From positions 1 to 30,360 of IMG/VR virus record IMGVR_UViG_3300005664_000040: a stretch of 30,360 bases of DNA, one strand, 5' to 3'. The position numbers were made by a program, and so were the translations under genes. Source of the DNA: a virus. The notes under the pieces are model-generated. The model was not told the DNA's origin. It made no database searches and worked only from the letters and a program-made list of their open reading frames with translations. This document shows, piece by piece, positions 2,456-16,274 of this stretch (position 1 is its first letter; each line of letters begins with the position of its first letter).

Positions 2456-2674
2456 TTATCGAGCCCTAAATCTGACTTTGACGTCAGGACCGAACATCGA
2501 GAAAAGATCACCTTTCCCCTTCAGCGCCCAATAGATCAAGGCACATTGAAAAGGGTTGACTTTCAACTCTTTTGCAAGTGCCGCTATGCGCGACTCGACA
2601 AGAACCGGCATTTCCTCGTTCTCGAGTTCTTCACACAACTTTGCGACACGCGCCAGCTTTTCTGTCGGTGTCAC
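2456..2674 (-). CDS. small helical protein between terminase and portal
   Basis: This 72-residue protein of unknown function begins MTPTEKLARVAKLCEELENEE and ends in a basic tail (VKVRFRAR). It is strongly helical, with an acidic N-terminal half and an Ala/Leu-rich centre. Its ATG overlaps the terminase stop codon as ATGA, so it is probably translated by reinitiation after the terminase. The location suggests a minor packaging or head-completion factor, but nothing in the sequence shows a specific activity. Confidence 0.7.
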   Translation of the reverse strand: MTPTEKLARVAKLCEELENEEMPVLVESRIAALAKELKVNPFQCALIYWALKGKGDLFSMFGPDVKVRFRAR

Positions 2675-4266
2675 AATCCCCCCATGATCTGGCTGCCCTT
2701 TGGCTTCTTACTAAATCGTTCCTTGCTGAAAATCCGTTCCAGTGCGCGGCCCTCGTCTGTGTGCGCCTTCTTGTTCCAATTCTCAGGATAGATATGGTTC
2801 GCGCTATCGTACACGACGCCCCTCGTCAAATCGTAGTTCACCGGGAAGGGGTTGGTGCTCATGTTGAGATTTCGCACGCAATAGAGCAAGGCGTCTAAAG
2901 CGTCCATGTGCCCGAGAGCCTTTGACCGGCCATAGTCCAATTTCTTGGCATCCTTCCAGAACGCACCGTTCAGTGTGGCGATGAGAAGCTTGCAAGACGG
3001 GTCGATCTCGATCTTGTTCTGCTTTAAGAGAATCCGAACCAGATTCAACCATTCCGCTTTGTTCTCCTTCTCGGTAGCTCCGATGTGAACATTGTGGAGG
3101 GCTGCAAGGTCATTGAGAAGCATGAGGTTAGAATTATCCGACCAGTAGGTGTGCCTTGAATCATTACCCCACGCAATTTCGGTAACCACGGCTTTATGTC
3201 GAGCGGCGAAGATATCGGTTCTAACGTCAGCCCCTTCGATCCAGAATTCACGCTGTACAACGATTTTCGCCCTTTGAAAGTCATAATAAGCGAACACCTC
3301 AACGGTCTTGTCGGCAACGCCAAGGTCTGATCCTGACGCTTTGTACAAGAGGTCGTACCCGATGGGAGTCGGAGCGGCTCGGACATGTAATCCTTCGTCG
3401 AACTCTGGGACAATGACATAGGTTTCGTCCCGGACGAACCACGCCATAAACTCCCGCATAAAGCGCGTGAGGTACTCTTTCCCGATACCTTCTTCTTTAG
3501 CATACTCGTAGATTTGGGTGACCGAGTGTCCTCGCGCCGGATCACATATTTTGGCAATGACGTTAGACTCTTTTTCACCTATTTCACCTTTTCCGGTTTC
3601 CCTGAGCGCTTCGGCAATCTTGTCATGAGAGTATCCAGCTTCGTAAACAGTCGCATGAACATAGCTGTCATGCTGCTTTGCGGATTCAACGTAACGTACA
3701 ACAGGATCATCTGGAGAAGGGATAGGAGGGGGAGTTCCAGACAAAACCATCTCTCCGTCTGAATCCCATACCGCAGGGAATAGAACGTCATCTACTGCGG
3801 CCTCCAGATCATCGACTTCAGCCATCTCGTCAACTGTTGCCAGCGCCAGTTTCTGACCACGCATATAGCGATACTGACGCATATTACACCCATTAAATAC
3901 GACGCGGGAATCGTTAGGAAAAAGTAAGTCGTTGCTCTTGTCGCGGTATCGGGGAAGTAGGTCGTCAGGACAGTCAGAAAAAACGACGCCGATAATAGGC
4001 GTAATGTAATCTGCCAAGCCTTTCTCAACGGGGGCGACATAAGCCGTCTGTACTCCGGCAGTTCTAATATTCGTTTCTGCGTGCAGTATGAGCAAAAGCG
4101 TGGACTTTCGGCAACGTCGGCCCTCGACGAGTAACAGCTTTCGAGATGGGCGCTTTGTGTAAAACTTGTCATATCCGAGGTGTTGGGGCTTCTTTAGCTT
4201 GAACCTCAGAATTCCCGTTTCCCAACTTAGCCGTGCCCCTATCTGCTTCTCCCGTTCTGTCAGCAA
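2671..4266 (-). CDS. terminase large subunit (TerL)
   Basis: This 531-residue DNA-packaging motor has an N-terminal ATPase and a C-terminal RNase H-like nuclease. Walker A is GRRCRKS at residues 49-55, with Arg where most terminases have Gly just before the Lys. Walker B is LALATVDE at 140-147 (Asp146, catalytic Glu147), and the coupling motif SGTP is at 176-179. Candidate nuclease acidic residues are Asp314 (SGSDLG), Asp377 (WSDNS) and Asp455/Asp458 (HMDALDAL). The start is a TTG at 4264-4266 supported by AGGAG eight bases upstream; no in-frame ATG exists before residue 129. The first 32 codons overlap the small-subunit gene, so the two subunits are tightly coupled. Confidence 0.93.
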   Translation of the reverse strand: MLTEREKQIGARLSWETGILRFKLKKPQHLGYDKFYTKRPSRKLLLVEGRRCRKSTLLLILHAETNIRTAGVQTAYVAPVEKGLADYITPIIGVVFSDCPDDLLPRYRDKSNDLLFPNDSRVVFNGCNMRQYRYMRGQKLALATVDEMAEVDDLEAAVDDVLFPAVWDSDGEMVLSGTPPPIPSPDDPVVRYVESAKQHDSYVHATVYEAGYSHDKIAEALRETGKGEIGEKESNVIAKICDPARGHSVTQIYEYAKEEGIGKEYLTRFMREFMAWFVRDETYVIVPEFDEGLHVRAAPTPIGYDLLYKASGSDLGVADKTVEVFAYYDFQRAKIVVQREFWIEGADVRTDIFAARHKAVVTEIAWGNDSRHTYWSDNSNLMLLNDLAALHNVHIGATEKENKAEWLNLVRILLKQNKIEIDPSCKLLIATLNGAFWKDAKKLDYGRSKALGHMDALDALLYCVRNLNMSTNPFPVNYDLTRGVVYDSANHIYPENWNKKAHTDEGRALERIFSKERFSKKPKGSQIMGGL

Positions 4267-9079: not shown

Positions 9080-9258
9080 TTCCGCACCCCCTCAATCACG
9101 GCCACCGCCAGCATCCCAGCGACGACCAAGAGCCAGAGAGGGACAATGCCTCTCTTATTAATTCCAAAACATCCCCCGCCGAGCTTAGGATTAACCACTA
9201 CAGAGAATCCTGTCCCTTTCGGGTCCTTTTTATTTAGATGCTCGACGGAGAAATTCAT
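9076..9258 (-). CDS. small membrane protein
   Basis: 60 residues. The C-terminal third is a transmembrane helix (VPLWLLVVAGMLAVAVIEGV), preceded by a basic NKRG. The N-terminal half is soluble and Gly-rich. ATG overlaps the methyltransferase stop (ATGA). A shortened relative of its NKRG-IVPLWLL segment is found at 9987-10043 upstream of the methyltransferase, suggesting local duplication. Function unknown. Confidence 0.65.
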   Translation of the reverse strand: MNFSVEHLNKKDPKGTGFSVVVNPKLGGGCFGINKRGIVPLWLLVVAGMLAVAVIEGVRK

Positions 9259-9986
9259 TTTAATCCCATCAACCTTTCAAAGGCTTCTCGCGCTTGGGCC
9301 GGAACCACTGAGTTACCGAGGGAGTGGATTCTATTTCTGTCCATGAAAACGCGTACCCCATTGCGTTCTCGTACAGGGAAACCACGTTCGTCCATTCCAG
9401 TCCATTTATGAGAGCTATGGTTGCTAATGACGGGGAATGCCTTTCTCTGGCCGCCAGGAATGCTTTTGTCCTGCTTAAATCCTTCCCATCCCTTGCGTTC
9501 GGCGTGGCCCAACAGCCACCATCTATCTCGCCTGTGCTGCGCTCCCACATCCGCAGCGGATAAAATTCCCCATCGACAGTCATACCGTAGGCGGCAAAGC
9601 TCCCCAACAACTCGTTCTGCTCCTCGAACAGTGATCGCTGATACGTTCTCCAGGAATACGAATCGCGGTCGTATCTCGCCAATGAGCCGAGCGATCTCGA
9701 AGAATAAACCGCTTCGCTTTCCTTCCAGGCCAGCTCCGCGTCCCGCAACAGAAATGTCTTGGCATGGAAATCCTCCGTAGATAATATCGACCCTTGGAAT
9801 GTAGGTTCCGCGTAGCGTGGTAACGTCATCCCATATCGGTGCAAGCGGGAGGTCTCCTGTAGCCATTCGTGATAAGAGAACGGCTTGAGCGTATCGGTCG
9901 TTTTCACAGTAAGCGACAGGGGTGACGTATCCTTCAAGGGCTTTGGTGATTCCTCCGATACCGCTAAATAAATCCAAGCCATACAC
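9255..9986 (-). CDS. C5 cytosine DNA methyltransferase (orphan)
   Basis: The 243-residue enzyme transfers a methyl group from S-adenosylmethionine to cytosine C5. Motif I is DLFSGIGG (residues 5-12), motif IV GGFPCQDIS with catalytic Cys75, motif VI ENV (113-115), motif VIII QHRRDR (150-155), and motif X GNSVVP (224-229). The target-recognition region between VIII and X is only about 65 residues, so the enzyme is compact. GTG at 9984-9986 with GGGAG upstream is the start giving the complete motif I. No restriction partner is adjacent, so it probably protects phage DNA from host restriction. Target sequence cannot be read off. Confidence 0.93.
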   Translation of the reverse strand: MYGLDLFSGIGGITKALEGYVTPVAYCENDRYAQAVLLSRMATGDLPLAPIWDDVTTLRGTYIPRVDIIYGGFPCQDISVAGRGAGLEGKRSGLFFEIARLIGEIRPRFVFLENVSAITVRGAERVVGELCRLRYDCRWGILSAADVGAQHRRDRWWLLGHAERKGWEGFKQDKSIPGGQRKAFPVISNHSSHKWTGMDERGFPVRERNGVRVFMDRNRIHSLGNSVVPAQAREAFERLMGLK

Positions 9987-11336: not shown

Positions 11337-11696
11337 TCAATAATTCAGCGCCGACAAGCTGGCGTCTTTATAATTTTGCATGGCGTAATTTTCCCACTGA
11401 TGAATCTCGTCGTGGTACGTCTTGCCCTGAAAACCCCTAATTGTTGGGGCATAGTTTTTTTCTTCAATCTGCCTCTGCTTCCACAGCGTCTTCTCGAATT
11501 CCCGCCACAACATTTTCATCTGCATCTCTGCTTGCTCCGATATCGGTTCCTTCGGCTTCAAGCTGAAGTCTTTGCATATCTCGAACGCTGTCAAGTATCT
11601 GCCCGGCGGTAGCGTTTGCTCGTAATCCCGCAAACTTTGAATTTGTGCGCTGTTTAGCAACCGCATCGTAAAAGCGCGTGCTATTTGTGGCTCCAT
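11337..11696 (-). CDS. hypothetical protein overlapping the 3' end of the replication gene
   Basis: 119 residues, strongly helical and Gln/Lys/Glu-rich (SEQAEMQMKMLWREFEKTLW, HDEIHQWENYAMQNY). ATG 11694-11696 has an AAGGGGGG site at ideal spacing. The first 233 nt lie inside the DUF1376-type gene in another frame. Both frames look protein-like, so this is either a true overlapping gene or the continuation of the upstream gene through a +1 frameshift at the G6-A3 run at 11700-11708. Function unknown; it may act with the replication protein. Confidence 0.6.
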   Translation of the reverse strand: MEPQIARAFTMRLLNSAQIQSLRDYEQTLPPGRYLTAFEICKDFSLKPKEPISEQAEMQMKMLWREFEKTLWKQRQIEEKNYAPTIRGFQGKTYHDEIHQWENYAMQNYKDASLSALNY

Positions 11697-12450
11697 AGTC
11701 TTTCCCCCCTTGTTTGGCTTTCCATTCGTGCGCCCATCGGACTATCGTTTCCAGCGTCCACGACTTTTCCCCCATACTTTCTGATACCTCGTCAATACAG
11801 GCCCGCGCGGACTCATACGAGCCGCAGACCTTCAAAACGGCAGAGGCAGCTTTAGCAGAGCGCGGCCAGTGCGTCTTGTCCCAAGACCGGTCGTCAAACG
11901 GGATCGTCTTCTTGACCGCCTTGTAGTACATCACCAAAGCCGCGGTCGGGTCTTCTTTCGGCTCCGGGATTCGATATTCCCGTAATTCCACCGGTTGGAT
12001 GGGTTCGCGCGGTAGCGCGATATCTTGGTGTTGTAGTTGACGTCTTCTAACGTCTTGAACGTCTAACTTCTTTAACGTCTTTAACGTCTTGTCTGTTACG
12101 GAAGCGTTACTGATAGCGTTACTGCGGAACCTCTTTTGACGATTCGCCGCGTTTTTATAGTGCGAATCTTCTCTTAACATTCTGCGGTTTTCAAGCGTTA
12201 CTAAATTGTTACGGTCCGTTACGCGTAACACTTTAGCCGACAACTCCGCGATGATCCTTGGGGCCGATTCCCAAGGGATTCCGGTCACTCTGGCGAACTG
12301 GTTATAGTCCCCCACCCATCGCCCGCGCTCTTGTGCGTTCCACATCAAACAAAGGATGTCTATGAGGCACCCTTTAGCTTCGGCTGATAGCTCCCGGGTG
12401 TCGTTCATCCAATCGTAAGGATGAAATTTAATCCAGTGCAATTTAGGCAT
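11464..12450 (-). CDS. DUF1376-type replication protein
   Basis: 328 residues. Residues 4-60 (KLHWIKFHPYDWMNDTRELS, LSAEAKGCLIDILCLMW) match DUF1376, typical of phage replication-organiser proteins. A basic linker (residues 85-150) leads to a helical region around 165-245 (AALVMYYKAVKK, ESARACIDEVSESMG, WTLETIVRWAHEW) like the C-terminal helicase-loading part of such proteins. It likely brings the replicative helicase to the phage origin. ATG 12450 is six bases after a GGGGGG ribosome site that can be trapped in a stem of the leader. The last ~77 codons overlap the next gene. Confidence 0.75.
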   Translation of the reverse strand: MPKLHWIKFHPYDWMNDTRELSAEAKGCLIDILCLMWNAQERGRWVGDYNQFARVTGIPWESAPRIIAELSAKVLRVTDRNNLVTLENRRMLREDSHYKNAANRQKRFRSNAISNASVTDKTLKTLKKLDVQDVRRRQLQHQDIALPREPIQPVELREYRIPEPKEDPTAALVMYYKAVKKTIPFDDRSWDKTHWPRSAKAASAVLKVCGSYESARACIDEVSESMGEKSWTLETIVRWAHEWKAKQGGKDYGATNSTRFYDAVAKQRTNSKFAGLRANATAGQILDSVRDMQRLQLEAEGTDIGASRDADENVVAGIREDAVEAEAD

Positions 12451-12782: not shown

Positions 12783-13130
12783 TTACCCCCTTAAATGAAA
12801 CTCTGTTAATTTCAGCATTTCAGCCATTTTTCTGACGGCTGTGAATTCATTTTCTAATCTTGTCTGGTCAGCCAGCGCCCGCCTATATGCAGATTCAGCA
12901 ATAATGACCGATTGCGTTGTCTCGTAAGTAGCCTCTGCCGCCTTTGCTTTTGCTTTCCCTGCGGTATTATTGAACGCCAGCGCCGCCATGTAAGCTTTAG
13001 CTGACTCCATTTCCTTTCGCGCTTCTGTGAGCTGCCATTTTTCTCGCAGGTCTTCGGTTCGAGTGGACGCCTTATAAATGTCCTCTGGGTACGACCGAAG
13101 CTTTTCGTTGATTAACTTAACGTCGTCCAT
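12783..13130 (-). CDS. coiled-coil protein of the recombination module
   Basis: 115 residues, almost wholly helical with heptad character (TEDLREKWQLTEARKEMESA, then KAKAAEATYETTQSVIIAES). Ala/Lys/Glu-rich, no Cys, no catalytic motif. ATG overlaps the upstream stop (TAATG), with GGGAGAG before it. Proteins of this type often accompany phage annealase/exonuclease pairs, but no role is established. Confidence 0.6.
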   Translation of the reverse strand: MDDVKLINEKLRSYPEDIYKASTRTEDLREKWQLTEARKEMESAKAYMAALAFNNTAGKAKAKAAEATYETTQSVIIAESAYRRALADQTRLENEFTAVRKMAEMLKLTEFHLRG

Positions 13131-13795
13131 TACACTCTCCCAGAAACCACTTTCTCAACCCACACCATAACCCCGGGTATGCTGGCGGTTTTTCCCATCG
13201 CCTTGACGTAGTTTTTAATTTTTTTCTCGTCAGGGCAACAAAGGTTTCGCGGGACCGCGTCGGGGTCGGAGATTTTAAACATAACCTCGTCGCGCATCGA
13301 AATACCGGCAATCTTTGGCGCTTCTGGCGTCTTGACTTCAACGACAACGGGGGCTAGTGGAGCCTCCAGCGTTTGAGCGCACCCTGACAAATCGCCTCGG
13401 TCCATTTGGTCTTGTGCTTTAGCGATGCGGTCCGCTTCGGCTTGGGCTTCCGCTTGGCGGCGAAGGCGTTCGGCTTCTTCGCGGCGCTGTTTTTCGACTT
13501 CCATCTGGTAATTTCCGACTTCACGCTTAACGGTCATTTCGTCTTGCTTCAATGGCGATAGGACGCTATCGCGCAGGGTTGTGAGGGCCTTATGCGCTTT
13601 ATGGGCAAGGGAAACGGGCTCTGCAAACCTGTCTTCAATGATCTTGTAACGCTTCTTGATTTCCAACAGAAGACCGGCAGCGTATTGAAAACTGGCGTCG
13701 TCCGTTACCTTCAACATTGCCACCTGCGCCCGCATATCTCCATTCGAAACCTGCAAATCAACAACCTCTGGCTCAACGATCTGGATATTACTCAT
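13130..13795 (-). CDS. recombination-module protein, coiled coil plus C-terminal domain
   Basis: 221 residues. Residues ~25-150 are long helices (VSLAHKAHKALTTLRD, then EVEKQRREEAERLRRQAEAQ). The C-terminal ~60 residues form a separate domain with SDPDAVPRNLCCPDEKKIKN, KAMGKTASIPGVMVW. That end is the familiar VPxxYLxPDEKxI...IPGVxV pattern of phage proteins encoded beside RecT/ERF-type annealases. Their function is not known; a DNA-handling partner is plausible. ATG 13795 has GGGGGAG upstream and overlaps the end of the exonuclease gene by eight bases. Confidence 0.7.
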   Translation of the reverse strand: MSNIQIVEPEVVDLQVSNGDMRAQVAMLKVTDDASFQYAAGLLLEIKKRYKIIEDRFAEPVSLAHKAHKALTTLRDSVLSPLKQDEMTVKREVGNYQMEVEKQRREEAERLRRQAEAQAEADRIAKAQDQMDRGDLSGCAQTLEAPLAPVVVEVKTPEAPKIAGISMRDEVMFKISDPDAVPRNLCCPDEKKIKNYVKAMGKTASIPGVMVWVEKVVSGRV

Positions 13796-14408
13796 GATAT
13801 TTGCTCCCCCATTTTGTTAGTTTGATGTCTGCATTTAAGATGTCCATGAACGCGGACATATCGTCTGGATCTTCCAGTAGACGGAATTTGTACTCCCCTG
13901 TTTTCTTAAGCCACAAGACGGCGCGGCCTTCTATCTTTGCTTCTGGTTCCAAGCTATCCCATCCGAGCGAATAGCCGGCTGTTTGTAAGCCGACGCTTTT
14001 TGGTATTTCTGCCGTACATTTGTCGTCAATGACCATTCGCCGCCCTGCAACAAAAGCGAAGATGTCCGCTTTGAACCCAAACCCCAAAGGCGACACGTGC
14101 GGGACTTCTGTTTCAATGAGTACGGCTCCGCTATCTTTCCAAAAAGACTTGAACGCTTTTATATAGCCCTGAATCTGCGGATCAATTGTCGATGGGTCCA
14201 GCTCTCTCCCCTGAAGCAATAGCCGACGGCCTTCCGCATATGCGCACCCGCGCTGCCTTGCAACTTCCAGAATGTCTTTTGGAATTCTGGAAAAGTCTGG
14301 AGTCATGCCATACTTCTTTAGCAACCCCGTCACGCTGCGGGGGCATGGCACCCCCGCTTGCGTGTACGTGTGCGTGATCTCGTCAAACACAACGTCTTGC
14401 TGGATCAT
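13788..14408 (-). CDS. PD-(D/E)XK exonuclease, RecT partner
   Basis: 206 residues of the RecB/Cas4-like nuclease superfamily. Core residues visible: Glu99/Glu101 region, Asp115 in GFKADIF, the catalytic Asp128-Asp129-Lys130 (VIDDKCT), and the QTAGY motif at 142-146, in the expected order and spacing. It would resect DNA ends to give single strands for the annealase encoded just upstream. The small size and lack of helicase domain fit phage exonucleases. ATG 14408 overlaps the RecT stop as ATGA, so the pair is translationally coupled. Confidence 0.85.
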   Translation of the reverse strand: MIQQDVVFDEITHTYTQAGVPCPRSVTGLLKKYGMTPDFSRIPKDILEVARQRGCAYAEGRRLLLQGRELDPSTIDPQIQGYIKAFKSFWKDSGAVLIETEVPHVSPLGFGFKADIFAFVAGRRMVIDDKCTAEIPKSVGLQTAGYSLGWDSLEPEAKIEGRAVLWLKKTGEYKFRLLEDPDDMSAFMDILNADIKLTKWGSKYHE

Positions 14409-15244
14409 TTGACCGGCTCCGCGACGGGTTCGTCAGTCCAAGCGGTTAAAACTTGTTTCGCTTGAGCCCTCGATAGGATTGTCAAAGAGTCCGCGGCGAA
14501 TTTGTCTTTCACAAATCGCGCGACCTCCTCCATATCCGCGCCAAGACGTGTTAACTCTTTAAGAAAGTAACTCAATTCTCCGGCAACCATCGGTTGCCCA
14601 TCTGCGCTCTTGACAACCGGGGCCAGTTCTGTCGGTTGAGCCTTTGGCATTTGGATGGCCGGTGCCTTGTCTGCGACGGTTTCAACGTAGTCTGATACTT
14701 CCTCACGGATTGAAAGACCTTTTAAGACGTCCGTGAATTTATCGCGCAATAAAAACGCCCGCGCTCTCATTTGGATCATGCGCTTAGGGTAGCTGCGCCA
14801 TGTCCCCTCCTTCTTCGATAATCCAGCCCTATCTGCGTCTGCCATAGAGAAGGTGTATACCCCCTCATTCGGGTCCGTCTTGCGCTTCCCGCGAACGGTC
14901 CAAGTCTGCGTTTTTTCGTCCCATTCTTCACGGACGTATTCGCATATCGGCGAAGCCAAAACAAGCGCCATCGCTGCATCTCCCCAAACGGTCGGTCGCC
15001 CGTTGATGACCGCAATATTCTGGATCGCTTGCATAGGGGCAAGCCCAACCTCCATTCCCATCTGCATTGCAATCAGGCAATTACCTGCTTTCCCTTTGAA
15101 GTCCTTCGGGGCTAAGTCTGAGTTCGCAATCAACTCTGCCAGCTTGAAAGCCTGATCCAGATTCGTCGGCGTAAGACTGAACGCCTTCCCCACTGCCAGC
15201 GTCGTTTCTTCTACATCTTCTTGACCCTTCTTTTTTGATGTCAT
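14405..15244 (-). CDS. recT: RecT-family single-strand annealing protein
   Basis: 279 residues. The family core is clear: LAPKDFKGKAGNCLIAMQMG, GLAPMQAIQNIAVINGRPTVWGDAAMALV, the WTVRGKRK beta segment and MIQMRARAFLLRDKF. RecT proteins anneal complementary single strands and promote strand exchange during phage replication and recombination. ATG 15242-15244 is chosen because GGAGGAGG lies just upstream and the ATG overlaps the preceding stop; a start 31 codons earlier lies within the Cys-rich gene. The last ~60 residues are a separate helical extension, perhaps contacting host SSB or the exonuclease. Confidence 0.9.
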   Translation of the reverse strand: MTSKKKGQEDVEETTLAVGKAFSLTPTNLDQAFKLAELIANSDLAPKDFKGKAGNCLIAMQMGMEVGLAPMQAIQNIAVINGRPTVWGDAAMALVLASPICEYVREEWDEKTQTWTVRGKRKTDPNEGVYTFSMADADRAGLSKKEGTWRSYPKRMIQMRARAFLLRDKFTDVLKGLSIREEVSDYVETVADKAPAIQMPKAQPTELAPVVKSADGQPMVAGELSYFLKELTRLGADMEEVARFVKDKFAADSLTILSRAQAKQVLTAWTDEPVAEPVK

Positions 15245-15408
15245 TGATTCCTCCTCCGTTCCATTTCGTTGCTGACCCTTTCTTCGTAACAATATCGGCA
15301 CTCTGCGTAGGTCACTGGATGTGATGAGCAGATGCAATCCCGGATATCTGATATGCGGACGCTACAGTTTAAACACTCCACCAAATGATCATGCGTTGCC
15401 CCGTTCAT
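15241..15408 (-). CDS. 55-residue Cys-rich zinc-binding-like protein
   Basis: From ATG 15406-15408: CLNC near residues 12-15, CICSSH in the middle and CRYC near 38-41, with a basic Glu/Arg C-terminus (ERRRNQ). The pairs could form one or two zinc sites. The ATG overlaps the stop of the membrane protein upstream and the TGA overlaps the RecT ATG. A longer in-frame reading from 15489 is rejected since the extra DNA encodes that membrane protein in another frame. Function unknown. Confidence 0.6.
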   Translation of the reverse strand: MNGATHDHLVECLNCSVRISDIRDCICSSHPVTYAECRYCYEERVSNEMERRRNQ

Positions 15409-15723: not shown

Positions 15724-15999
15724 TTAGGCGTAGTGCTTGACCGTTTTAACCCCGGTCCGCGTAAAAGCCACTTCGTATGATTTCACTTTGTGCCCCTTTG
15801 AACAAAAAGAATCAAGGACCGTTCTTTCTAGGTGTACAACTCGGGTGTCGTACTCGTTGCTTAATTCCATTGCTATACGATTGGCGTCGTCATACGATTT
15901 AAATTCCCCTGCTTTGTACCACACGCCAAGCCGAACCCTATAGTGGACGCCGTATAGATCGTTTAACTTTTCCAAACCGTCCGTGCATTCCTTTTTCAT
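15724..15999 (-). CDS. first gene of the P2 transcript, hypothetical
   Basis: 91 residues, mixed alpha/beta (EKLNDLYGVHYRVRLGVWYK, YDDANRIAMELSNEYDTRVV) resembling a small SPOR- or ferredoxin-like sandwich, though no family can be named. Cys66 and His70 are close together. AAAGGAGGATAT precedes ATG 15999. It lies about 27 bases downstream of the expected P2 transcript start, so it should be among the earliest and strongest expressed proteins. Confidence 0.7.
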   Translation of the reverse strand: MKKECTDGLEKLNDLYGVHYRVRLGVWYKAGEFKSYDDANRIAMELSNEYDTRVVHLERTVLDSFCSKGHKVKSYEVAFTRTGVKTVKHYA

Positions 16000-16032: not shown

Positions 16033-16061
16033 AGTATACTTGATTGTTTACAATTTGTCAA
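16033..16061 (-). promoter_or_regulatory. promoter P2, near-consensus sigma-70, early operon
   Basis: TTGACA (six of six) at 16061-16056, 17-bp spacer, TATACT (five of six) at 16038-16033. The best promoter in the window, reading into the recombination operon. It overlaps the stop codon of the RHH gene. Confidence 0.85.
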
Positions 16062-16064
16062 CAA
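16044..16064 (-). promoter_or_regulatory. tandem palindromic operator within P2
   Basis: TTGTTGACAA (16064-16055) and TTGTAAACAA (16053-16044) are two TTGTNNACAA palindromes with centres 11 bp apart, about one helical turn. They cover the -35 box and half the spacer. RHH proteins such as MetJ and Arc bind tandem short sites cooperatively on one DNA face, so the adjacent RHH protein is the natural candidate ligand (inference). Confidence 0.6.
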
Positions 16065-16227
16065 CTATTTTTCTCACTCTGATTTCAAGCGGGACCAGTA
16101 CAGACCTGACATATTGCGGGATTGTGAGTCCGTGCATGTGCGAAGATCGTCGTATGTGTGTCATTTCTTCATCGCTTACGCGCACCGACAGAACGGGATA
16201 CTTCTTCTTGTTTTTTTGGTTTGGCAT
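16048..16227 (-). CDS. ribbon-helix-helix transcriptional regulator
   Basis: 59 residues. After a basic N-terminal arm (NQKNKKK), YPVLSVRVSDEEMTHIRRSS supplies the beta strand and helix A. The HGLTIPQYVRSVLVP segment gives the turn and helix B: the Arc/MetJ/CopG fold, which binds DNA as dimers through the paired strands. AAAGGAGGACAAA precedes ATG 16227. The gene is flanked by its own promoter P1 and by P2, both carrying palindromes, so it probably represses the early operon and itself. Its 3' end overlaps P2. Confidence 0.8.
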   Translation of the reverse strand: MPNQKNKKKYPVLSVRVSDEEMTHIRRSSHMHGLTIPQYVRSVLVPLEIRVRKIVVDKL

Positions 16228-16245
16228 TTTGTCCTCCTTTTGATT

Positions 16246-16274
16246 GTTATAACATTTTGTAGTACAAACTTCAA
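16246..16274 (-). promoter_or_regulatory. promoter P1 for the RHH regulator, with palindromes
   Basis: TTGAAG at 16274-16269, 17-bp spacer, TATAAC at 16251-16246. TTTGTACTACAAA (16268-16256) fills the spacer as a 6-bp-arm palindrome, and TGTTATAACA (16254-16245) covers the -10 box. Both resemble the TTGTNNACAA sites in P2, with a longer centre, suggesting autoregulation. Confidence 0.7.

Follow-up and report, generated by a model that had tools for sequence, protein, structure and literature searches.

The locus and its small ribbon-helix-helix gene

The window, meaning the whole stretch of DNA that was analysed, is a phage contig presented as a virus record of 30,360 bp, and the features found in it are collected in Table 1. 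Among them is a gene for a 59-residue protein (hereafter rhh), preceded by what reads in the sequence as a good ribosome-binding site. A sequence-only reading of the window had assigned this protein to the ribbon-helix-helix (RHH) fold, and profile, model and structural neighbours agreed with the assignment. In particular, the protein matched the NikA-like family of Pfam with an E-value of 7.1e-6 and 26.5 bits, half a bit under the curated cut-off of 27. Its AF2 monomer model presented two helices (residues 19-31 and 36-56) at a moderate mean pLDDT of 68.5, the strand of the RHH fold being unformed in the monomer, and the entries ranked at the top when this model was compared with the PDB by Foldseek were RHH proteins (NikA, Arc, CopG and antitoxins), every E-value being at least 0.001. 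On both the sequence-profile test and the test of two helices and structural neighbours, the protein is a member of the RHH superfamily. Moreover, a weak match to the RelB model of NCBIfam was obtained (E-value of 0.0076, 16.5 bits against a cut-off of 50), and the nearest plasmid match was a MobC gene (E-value of 0.07). A direct search with the protein returned no relative among viral contigs or annotated phages.

Upstream of P1, the predicted promoter of rhh, the lysis-side genes end in a strong intrinsic terminator whose hairpin (-27.5 kcal/mol, z -3.7) is followed by a T-rich tail. Behind rhh, on the same strand, small unassigned genes are followed by those of a RecT-like annealing protein, two exonuclease-like proteins, a primosomal-type protein and RusA. 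The phrog matches of these downstream genes bore out the earlier proposal that rhh heads a recombination/replication operon. The primosomal-type protein scored 25.8 bits against PF07120, below the cut-off of 30.1. In the interval separating rhh from the gene that follows it, the minus strand had no listed terminator-like site. This following gene, which is the first one behind a second predicted promoter (P2), encodes 91 residues that had no match in NCBIfam and only a sub-threshold match to DUF3110 in Pfam, and no counterpart of it was found in the five relatives searched. Furthermore, a C-5 cytosine methyltransferase gene (window positions 9255-9986, minus strand) is codirectional with the operon.

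Table 1. Positions in the window of the genes, promoters and candidate operator sites
Feature	Position	Strand	Basis or description
Intrinsic terminator of the lysis-side genes, upstream of P1	16293..16327	minus	13-bp arms, 92% complementary
P1, predicted rhh promoter	16246..16274	minus	TTGAAG-17-TATAAC; 9/12 consensus matches, by eye
P1 palindromes	16268-16256; 16254-16245	minus	TTTGTACTACAAA; TGTTATAACA
P1 candidate operator array	16245..16266	minus	TGT-N3-ACA-N3-TGT-N4-ACA; occupies spacer and -10
ACA-N3-TGT core of P1 array	16252..16260	minus	ACAAAATGTTATA, identical in G009 P1
rhh, candidate RHH repressor, 59 aa	16048..16227	minus	ORF translation, profile and structure searches
P2 palindromes	16064-16055; 16053-16044	minus	TTGTTGACAA; TTGTAAACAA; centres 11 bp apart
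P2 candidate operator array	16045..16063	minus	TGT-N2-ACA-N3-TGT-N2-ACA, i.e. two TTGTNNACAA palindromes; spans rhh stop codon
ACA-N3-TGT core of P2 array	16050..16058	minus
P2, predicted promoter of the recombination/replication operon	16033..16061	minus	TTGACA (16061-16056), 17 bp, TATACT (16038-16033); 11/12
First gene behind P2, 91 aa, no assigned function	15724..15999	minus
RecT-like annealing protein, P2 operon	14405..15337	minus	phrog_561, E 1.8e-51
Two exonuclease-like genes, P2 operon	13788-14408 and 13130-13795 (span 13130..14408)	minus	phrog_298, E 6.9e-10; phrog_10477, E 5.3e-17
Primosomal-type (DUF1376-like) protein, farther along the operon	11464..12450	minus	phrog_9327, E 2.6e-7

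Paired sites at the two promoters

Two promoter scans over the whole window returned P2 as the sole 11/12 match, in line with its earlier designation as the best promoter. It overlaps the 3' end of rhh, its -35 box lying inside the coding sequence. P1 was missing from the list of the scanner, which demands a T at position 6 of the -10 box, and its boxes were placed by eye. All four palindromes that had been claimed for these promoters were found on the minus strand. At P2, the first of them lies over the -35 box and the second, situated in the spacer, spans the TAA that ends rhh (16050-16048); the operator-like site that had been said to overlap the 3' end of the gene thus contains its stop codon. 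At P1, one palindrome lies in the spacer and the other over the -10 box.

The palindrome TTGTNNACAA occurs twice in the 30,360 bp, compared to a mean of 0.28 in shuffled sequences, 3 of 100 of which reached two copies. When pairs built of the same half-site were considered (4-bp arms, 2-bp gap, centres 9-13 bp apart), one was found in the window, against 0.005 per shuffled window (200 shuffles). Furthermore, when TGT-N2-4-ACA sites were required to come in pairs with a centre-to-centre distance of 10.5-13 bp, exactly two places qualified, P1 and P2, also when one mismatch was allowed, and two such pairs per window were reached in none of 300 shuffles. At this level, the suggested relatedness of the sites in both promoters held, and the TGT..ACA pairs appear nowhere else in the 30 kb.

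The tandem arrangement of TTGTNNACAA was also searched for in the whole collection, where it appeared in 96 other viral stretches. Two of these (L039 and L042) are second stretches of the L028 and L041 records and were excluded, leaving 94 records, none of which had a detectable NikA-like RHH protein; the terminase relative L126 (see below) was also searched. Similarly, when the window protein was compared by phmmer with short ORFs located no more than 900 bp from a tandem TTGTNNACAA, the best non-self E-value was 0.26. Therefore, the motif alone is not diagnostic of an RHH protein, and the palindromes by themselves weigh less. In addition, three or four palindromes of the TTGTGGACAA type in exact 11-bp tandem were observed in unrelated viral contigs (L012 4137-4179, L036 4583-4625, L030 5891-5922 and L098 10762-10804); as no NikA-like RHH protein was found in these four records, another regulator with one-turn spacing is likely there.

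The gene, its 3' promoter and the arrays in relatives

The relatives carrying the RHH gene were recovered through their terminase and not through the motif. A total of seven contigs resulted from the terminase search, and a wider search added L126 and also reached L004, which had already been found via its portal. The terminase alignment had no match in bacterial genomes, and the terminase by itself gave a single weak match among annotated phages. The window terminase itself (2671-4242, minus strand) presented about 35 extra residues (alignment columns 229-269) that are missing from seven relatives. Of the terminase relatives, G009 (22.9 kb, E-value of 5.3e-12) and G010 (39.4 kb, E-value of 8.1e-4) were found to carry the RHH gene, the remaining ones being fragments of 5-16 kb. 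The proteins of these two phages are 53 and 55 residues long and show 40% (G009) and 33% (G010) identity to that of the window, with R16, E21, R26, R27 and V43 among the invariant residues. Against the NikA-like family they scored 24.2 (G009) and 32.3 bits (G010), so that the cut-off of 27 was passed by G010 alone. A profile built from the three RHH sequences and applied to 15 records matched only the window, G009 and G010, which are its own source sequences, and when the alignment of the three sequences was used as the query, bacterial genomes gave no relative and the viral contigs only G009 again. In two RecT relatives (G001 and G002), the RHH gene was undetected and the exact site pair was absent from the stretches examined.

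In both G009 and G010, the RHH gene is the first of the early operon and a promoter stands at its stop codon. P2 of G010 reads TTGACA-17-TATACT (11/12), with the stop codon TGA within the -35 box, while in G009 the TTGACA starts right after the stop codon and the -10 box is poor (TAAGCT), this promoter being unlisted by the promoter scan. An AAA_24/Sak4-like ATPase stands in both phages in place of the RecT and exonucleases of the window. Moreover, when the window and G009 were compared by blastp (E-value of 1e-4), the RHH gene was among the few recognisably shared ones outside the structural genes and the terminase-adjacent block. All three phages found with the gene keep a predicted target promoter where the regulator gene ends, three phages being what this plan rests on. 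Two divergent relatives thus combine the RHH gene with a P2-type promoter at its end and with paired sites, in support of the earlier reading.

A check that had been proposed, namely that relatives keeping the gene should present TTGTNNACAA pairs, failed, as the literal palindrome is not conserved. The pairs are TTGTTGACAC and TGTGTAACAA in G009, and TGTTATACA and TGTTATACT in G010, and within the 20 kb of G009 that were examined, TTGTNNACAA has a single exact copy, at another location. The pattern TGT-N2-4-ACA-NNN-TGT-N2-4-AC, present at P1 and P2 of the window, has one copy in the complete G009 record and one in that of G010, each time at P2. It was absent from nine further stretches, of which seven came from terminase relatives and two from RecT relatives; G010 fails to match the strict form ending in ACA. 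Furthermore, the 8-mer TGTTATAC has three copies in the G010 record, two of them in P2, 12 bp apart, and one inverted over the -10 box of P1, and a tandem P2 8-mer recurring in P1 appeared in none of 20,000 shuffles. Operator-like repeats in the gene's own promoter, the mark of an autoregulatory RHH protein, are hence found as an array in the window and as the inverted TGTTATAC in G010, while P1 of G009 carries only the ACA-N3-TGT core.

This core is present in five of the six promoters of the three phages, P1 of G010 being the exception. When all 3-bp dyads with gaps of 0-8 were examined in the six 53-bp promoter regions, none reached five promoters in 3000 shuffles (maximum of 4) or in 3000 random genomic sets. 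The significance is somewhat overstated by these figures, since in two of the five promoters the ACA is part of the -35 TTGACA, which the shuffles did not hold fixed. Motif definitions were made after the sequences had been viewed. The recurring candidate operator is a loose alternating TGT/ACA array with a period of 11-12 bp, of which ACA-N3-TGT is the most constant part. The inner gap of its TGT..ACA palindromes varies (2, 3 or 4 bp), which is awkward for a rigid RHH dimer and unlike the fixed half-site spacing known from characterised ones.

A predicted early repressor and its alternatives

Judging from the arrangement of gene, promoters and arrays, the 59-residue RHH protein probably represses the phage early operon together with its own gene, the best reading being a Cro-like role carried out with a fold and a DNA reading like those of Arc, CopG and RelB. 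P1, shielded from the lysis genes by the terminator, would transcribe rhh and probably read on into the operon, while P2, across the end of rhh, would drive the recombination and replication genes without further repressor synthesis. As the protein accumulated, its dimers would sit next to one another on the same face of the helix, on the alternating TGT/ACA half-sites. At P2 the array covers the -35 box and spacer, and at P1 the spacer and -10 box; bound dimers would exclude RNA polymerase and both promoters would be shut off. We infer promoter activity, dimer binding, cooperativity, repression and the timing of this early shut-off.

It is unlikely that the arrays are operators of another regulator, be it a host or an unrecognised phage protein, with the RHH protein binding elsewhere or having another job. 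Dyads of the TGT..ACA kind are also read by other regulators, the within-site gaps vary and the 94 viral records mentioned above have tandem TTGTNNACAA pairs but no detected NikA-like RHH protein. Nevertheless, arrays stand on either side of rhh in the window and, judged by the shared 8-mer, also in G010; they appear nowhere else in the three records and follow rhh into relatives with different neighbours, and no HTH_3 protein was found in these records, whose small ORFs were scanned only in part. That the protein activates P2 as a middle promoter while repressing P1 is quite improbable, as the sites cover the -35 box and spacer, where polymerase binds, and P2 is already near consensus in both the window and G010, even if the weak -10 box of G009 P2 might need help and the RHH protein AmrZ is, in the part of the literature available, an activator and a repressor both.

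Two further roles are suggested by the families that the protein resembles. RHH antitoxins autoregulate via such sites, which, together with the weak RelB match, would suit a type II toxin-antitoxin pair in which the RHH protein is the antitoxin and the product of the neighbouring gene the toxin. This is the most improbable of the readings, given that the neighbouring gene is preceded by a promoter of its own, resembles no toxin family (its only hit being the DUF3110 one described above) and has no match in the relatives keeping rhh, whose 53- and 55-residue proteins leave little beyond the RHH core for toxin binding. A NikA/MobC-type relaxosome protein or replication-origin binder, with the arrays as the origin, is very unlikely too. 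The plasmid proteins of this type are the closest sequence family, NikA-like being the best Pfam family (above its cut-off in G010) and MobC the nearest plasmid match, but the PF03432 relaxase, which is one relaxase family only, was found in none of the three records, making mobilisation unlikely, and the arrays coincide with promoters. In addition, MobC of RA3 itself autorepresses, through a palindrome between the -35 and -10 boxes, according to the available part of its description (PMC4175270). As for lysogeny control, it was set aside as unlikely because tyrosine integrase (PF00589) and HTH_3 repressor (PF01381) were each found in none of the three records, which are possibly incomplete.

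Regarding known systems, the repressor proposed here would share with lambda Cro the position of first gene of an early operon whose promoters it shuts off, although Cro has an unrelated HTH fold and competes with CI. P22 Arc (and Mnt) is likewise a small phage RHH protein heading a transcription unit, and Arc was a structural match in Foldseek. The half-sites of Arc are different, and its setting is a lysogeny immunity region that includes an antirepressor, unlike the present context, where neither integrase nor HTH_3 repressor was found in the three records. The 3' end of arc is not known to contain a promoter. The closest known operator found was that of Escherichia coli RelB, an RHH autorepressor whose relO comprises TTGTAATGACAT and TTGTAATTACAA with [A/T]TGT[A/C]A half-sites; in the part of that study available, two adjacent 12-bp palindromes are bound, extra spacing is not tolerated and RelB R7 contacts bases in the published model (PMC2812701). 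The present sites resemble relO in being adjacent TGT/ACA palindromes over the regulator's own promoter, but no toxin partner was recognised here, the inner gaps are of 2-4 bp compared to 4 in RelB, the array period is 11-12 bp compared to 12, a second promoter also carries sites and the RelB model match is far below its cut-off. The signature arginine of RelB, R7, seems to have its counterpart in R16 of the window protein, in our own reading and not in a computed alignment. Moreover, the archaeal viral proteins SvtR and F55 are small RHH proteins binding their own and other viral promoters, and F55, which binds tandem repeats at early genes, maintains lysogeny, as far as the available part of the source describes (PMC5569661); unlike the present protein, both act at archaeal promoters. 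By analogy, the 59-residue protein would work most like the RelB, archaeal viral RHH and MobC autorepressors.

No account of an early RHH repressor whose gene carries a promoter at its 3' end turned up in the full-text literature searched, in which few subscription journals are covered. More tentatively, and as something possible rather than probable, an RHH protein may serve an uncultured and probably lytic phage lineage as a timer of the Cro kind. The early-operon promoter and its operator would be fixed in the final codons of the regulator gene, so that regulator and promoter would form one travelling cassette behind which the recombination module is exchanged. The operator grammar would then be new for RHH proteins, combining a constant everted ACA-N3-TGT core with half-sites at a flexible distance, and raising the question of how RHH dimers read DNA. 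This would be the first predicted regulator for an uncultured phage group, with closely defined operators, and suggests that a protein of 60 residues and a promoter can make a portable governor of early genes, staying put while the recombination genes behind it get replaced.

Back to back with P1 of G010 there is a second 11/12 promoter (L116 7148-7176, minus strand), TTGACA-17-CATAAT, directed leftward, and the RHH protein might thus also influence the leftward operon. Finally, long short-unit repeats with several open frames (Gly/Tyr/Asn/Ser runs) were observed close to the early genes in G009 and G010 (L115 3266-3574 and L116 11157-11563).
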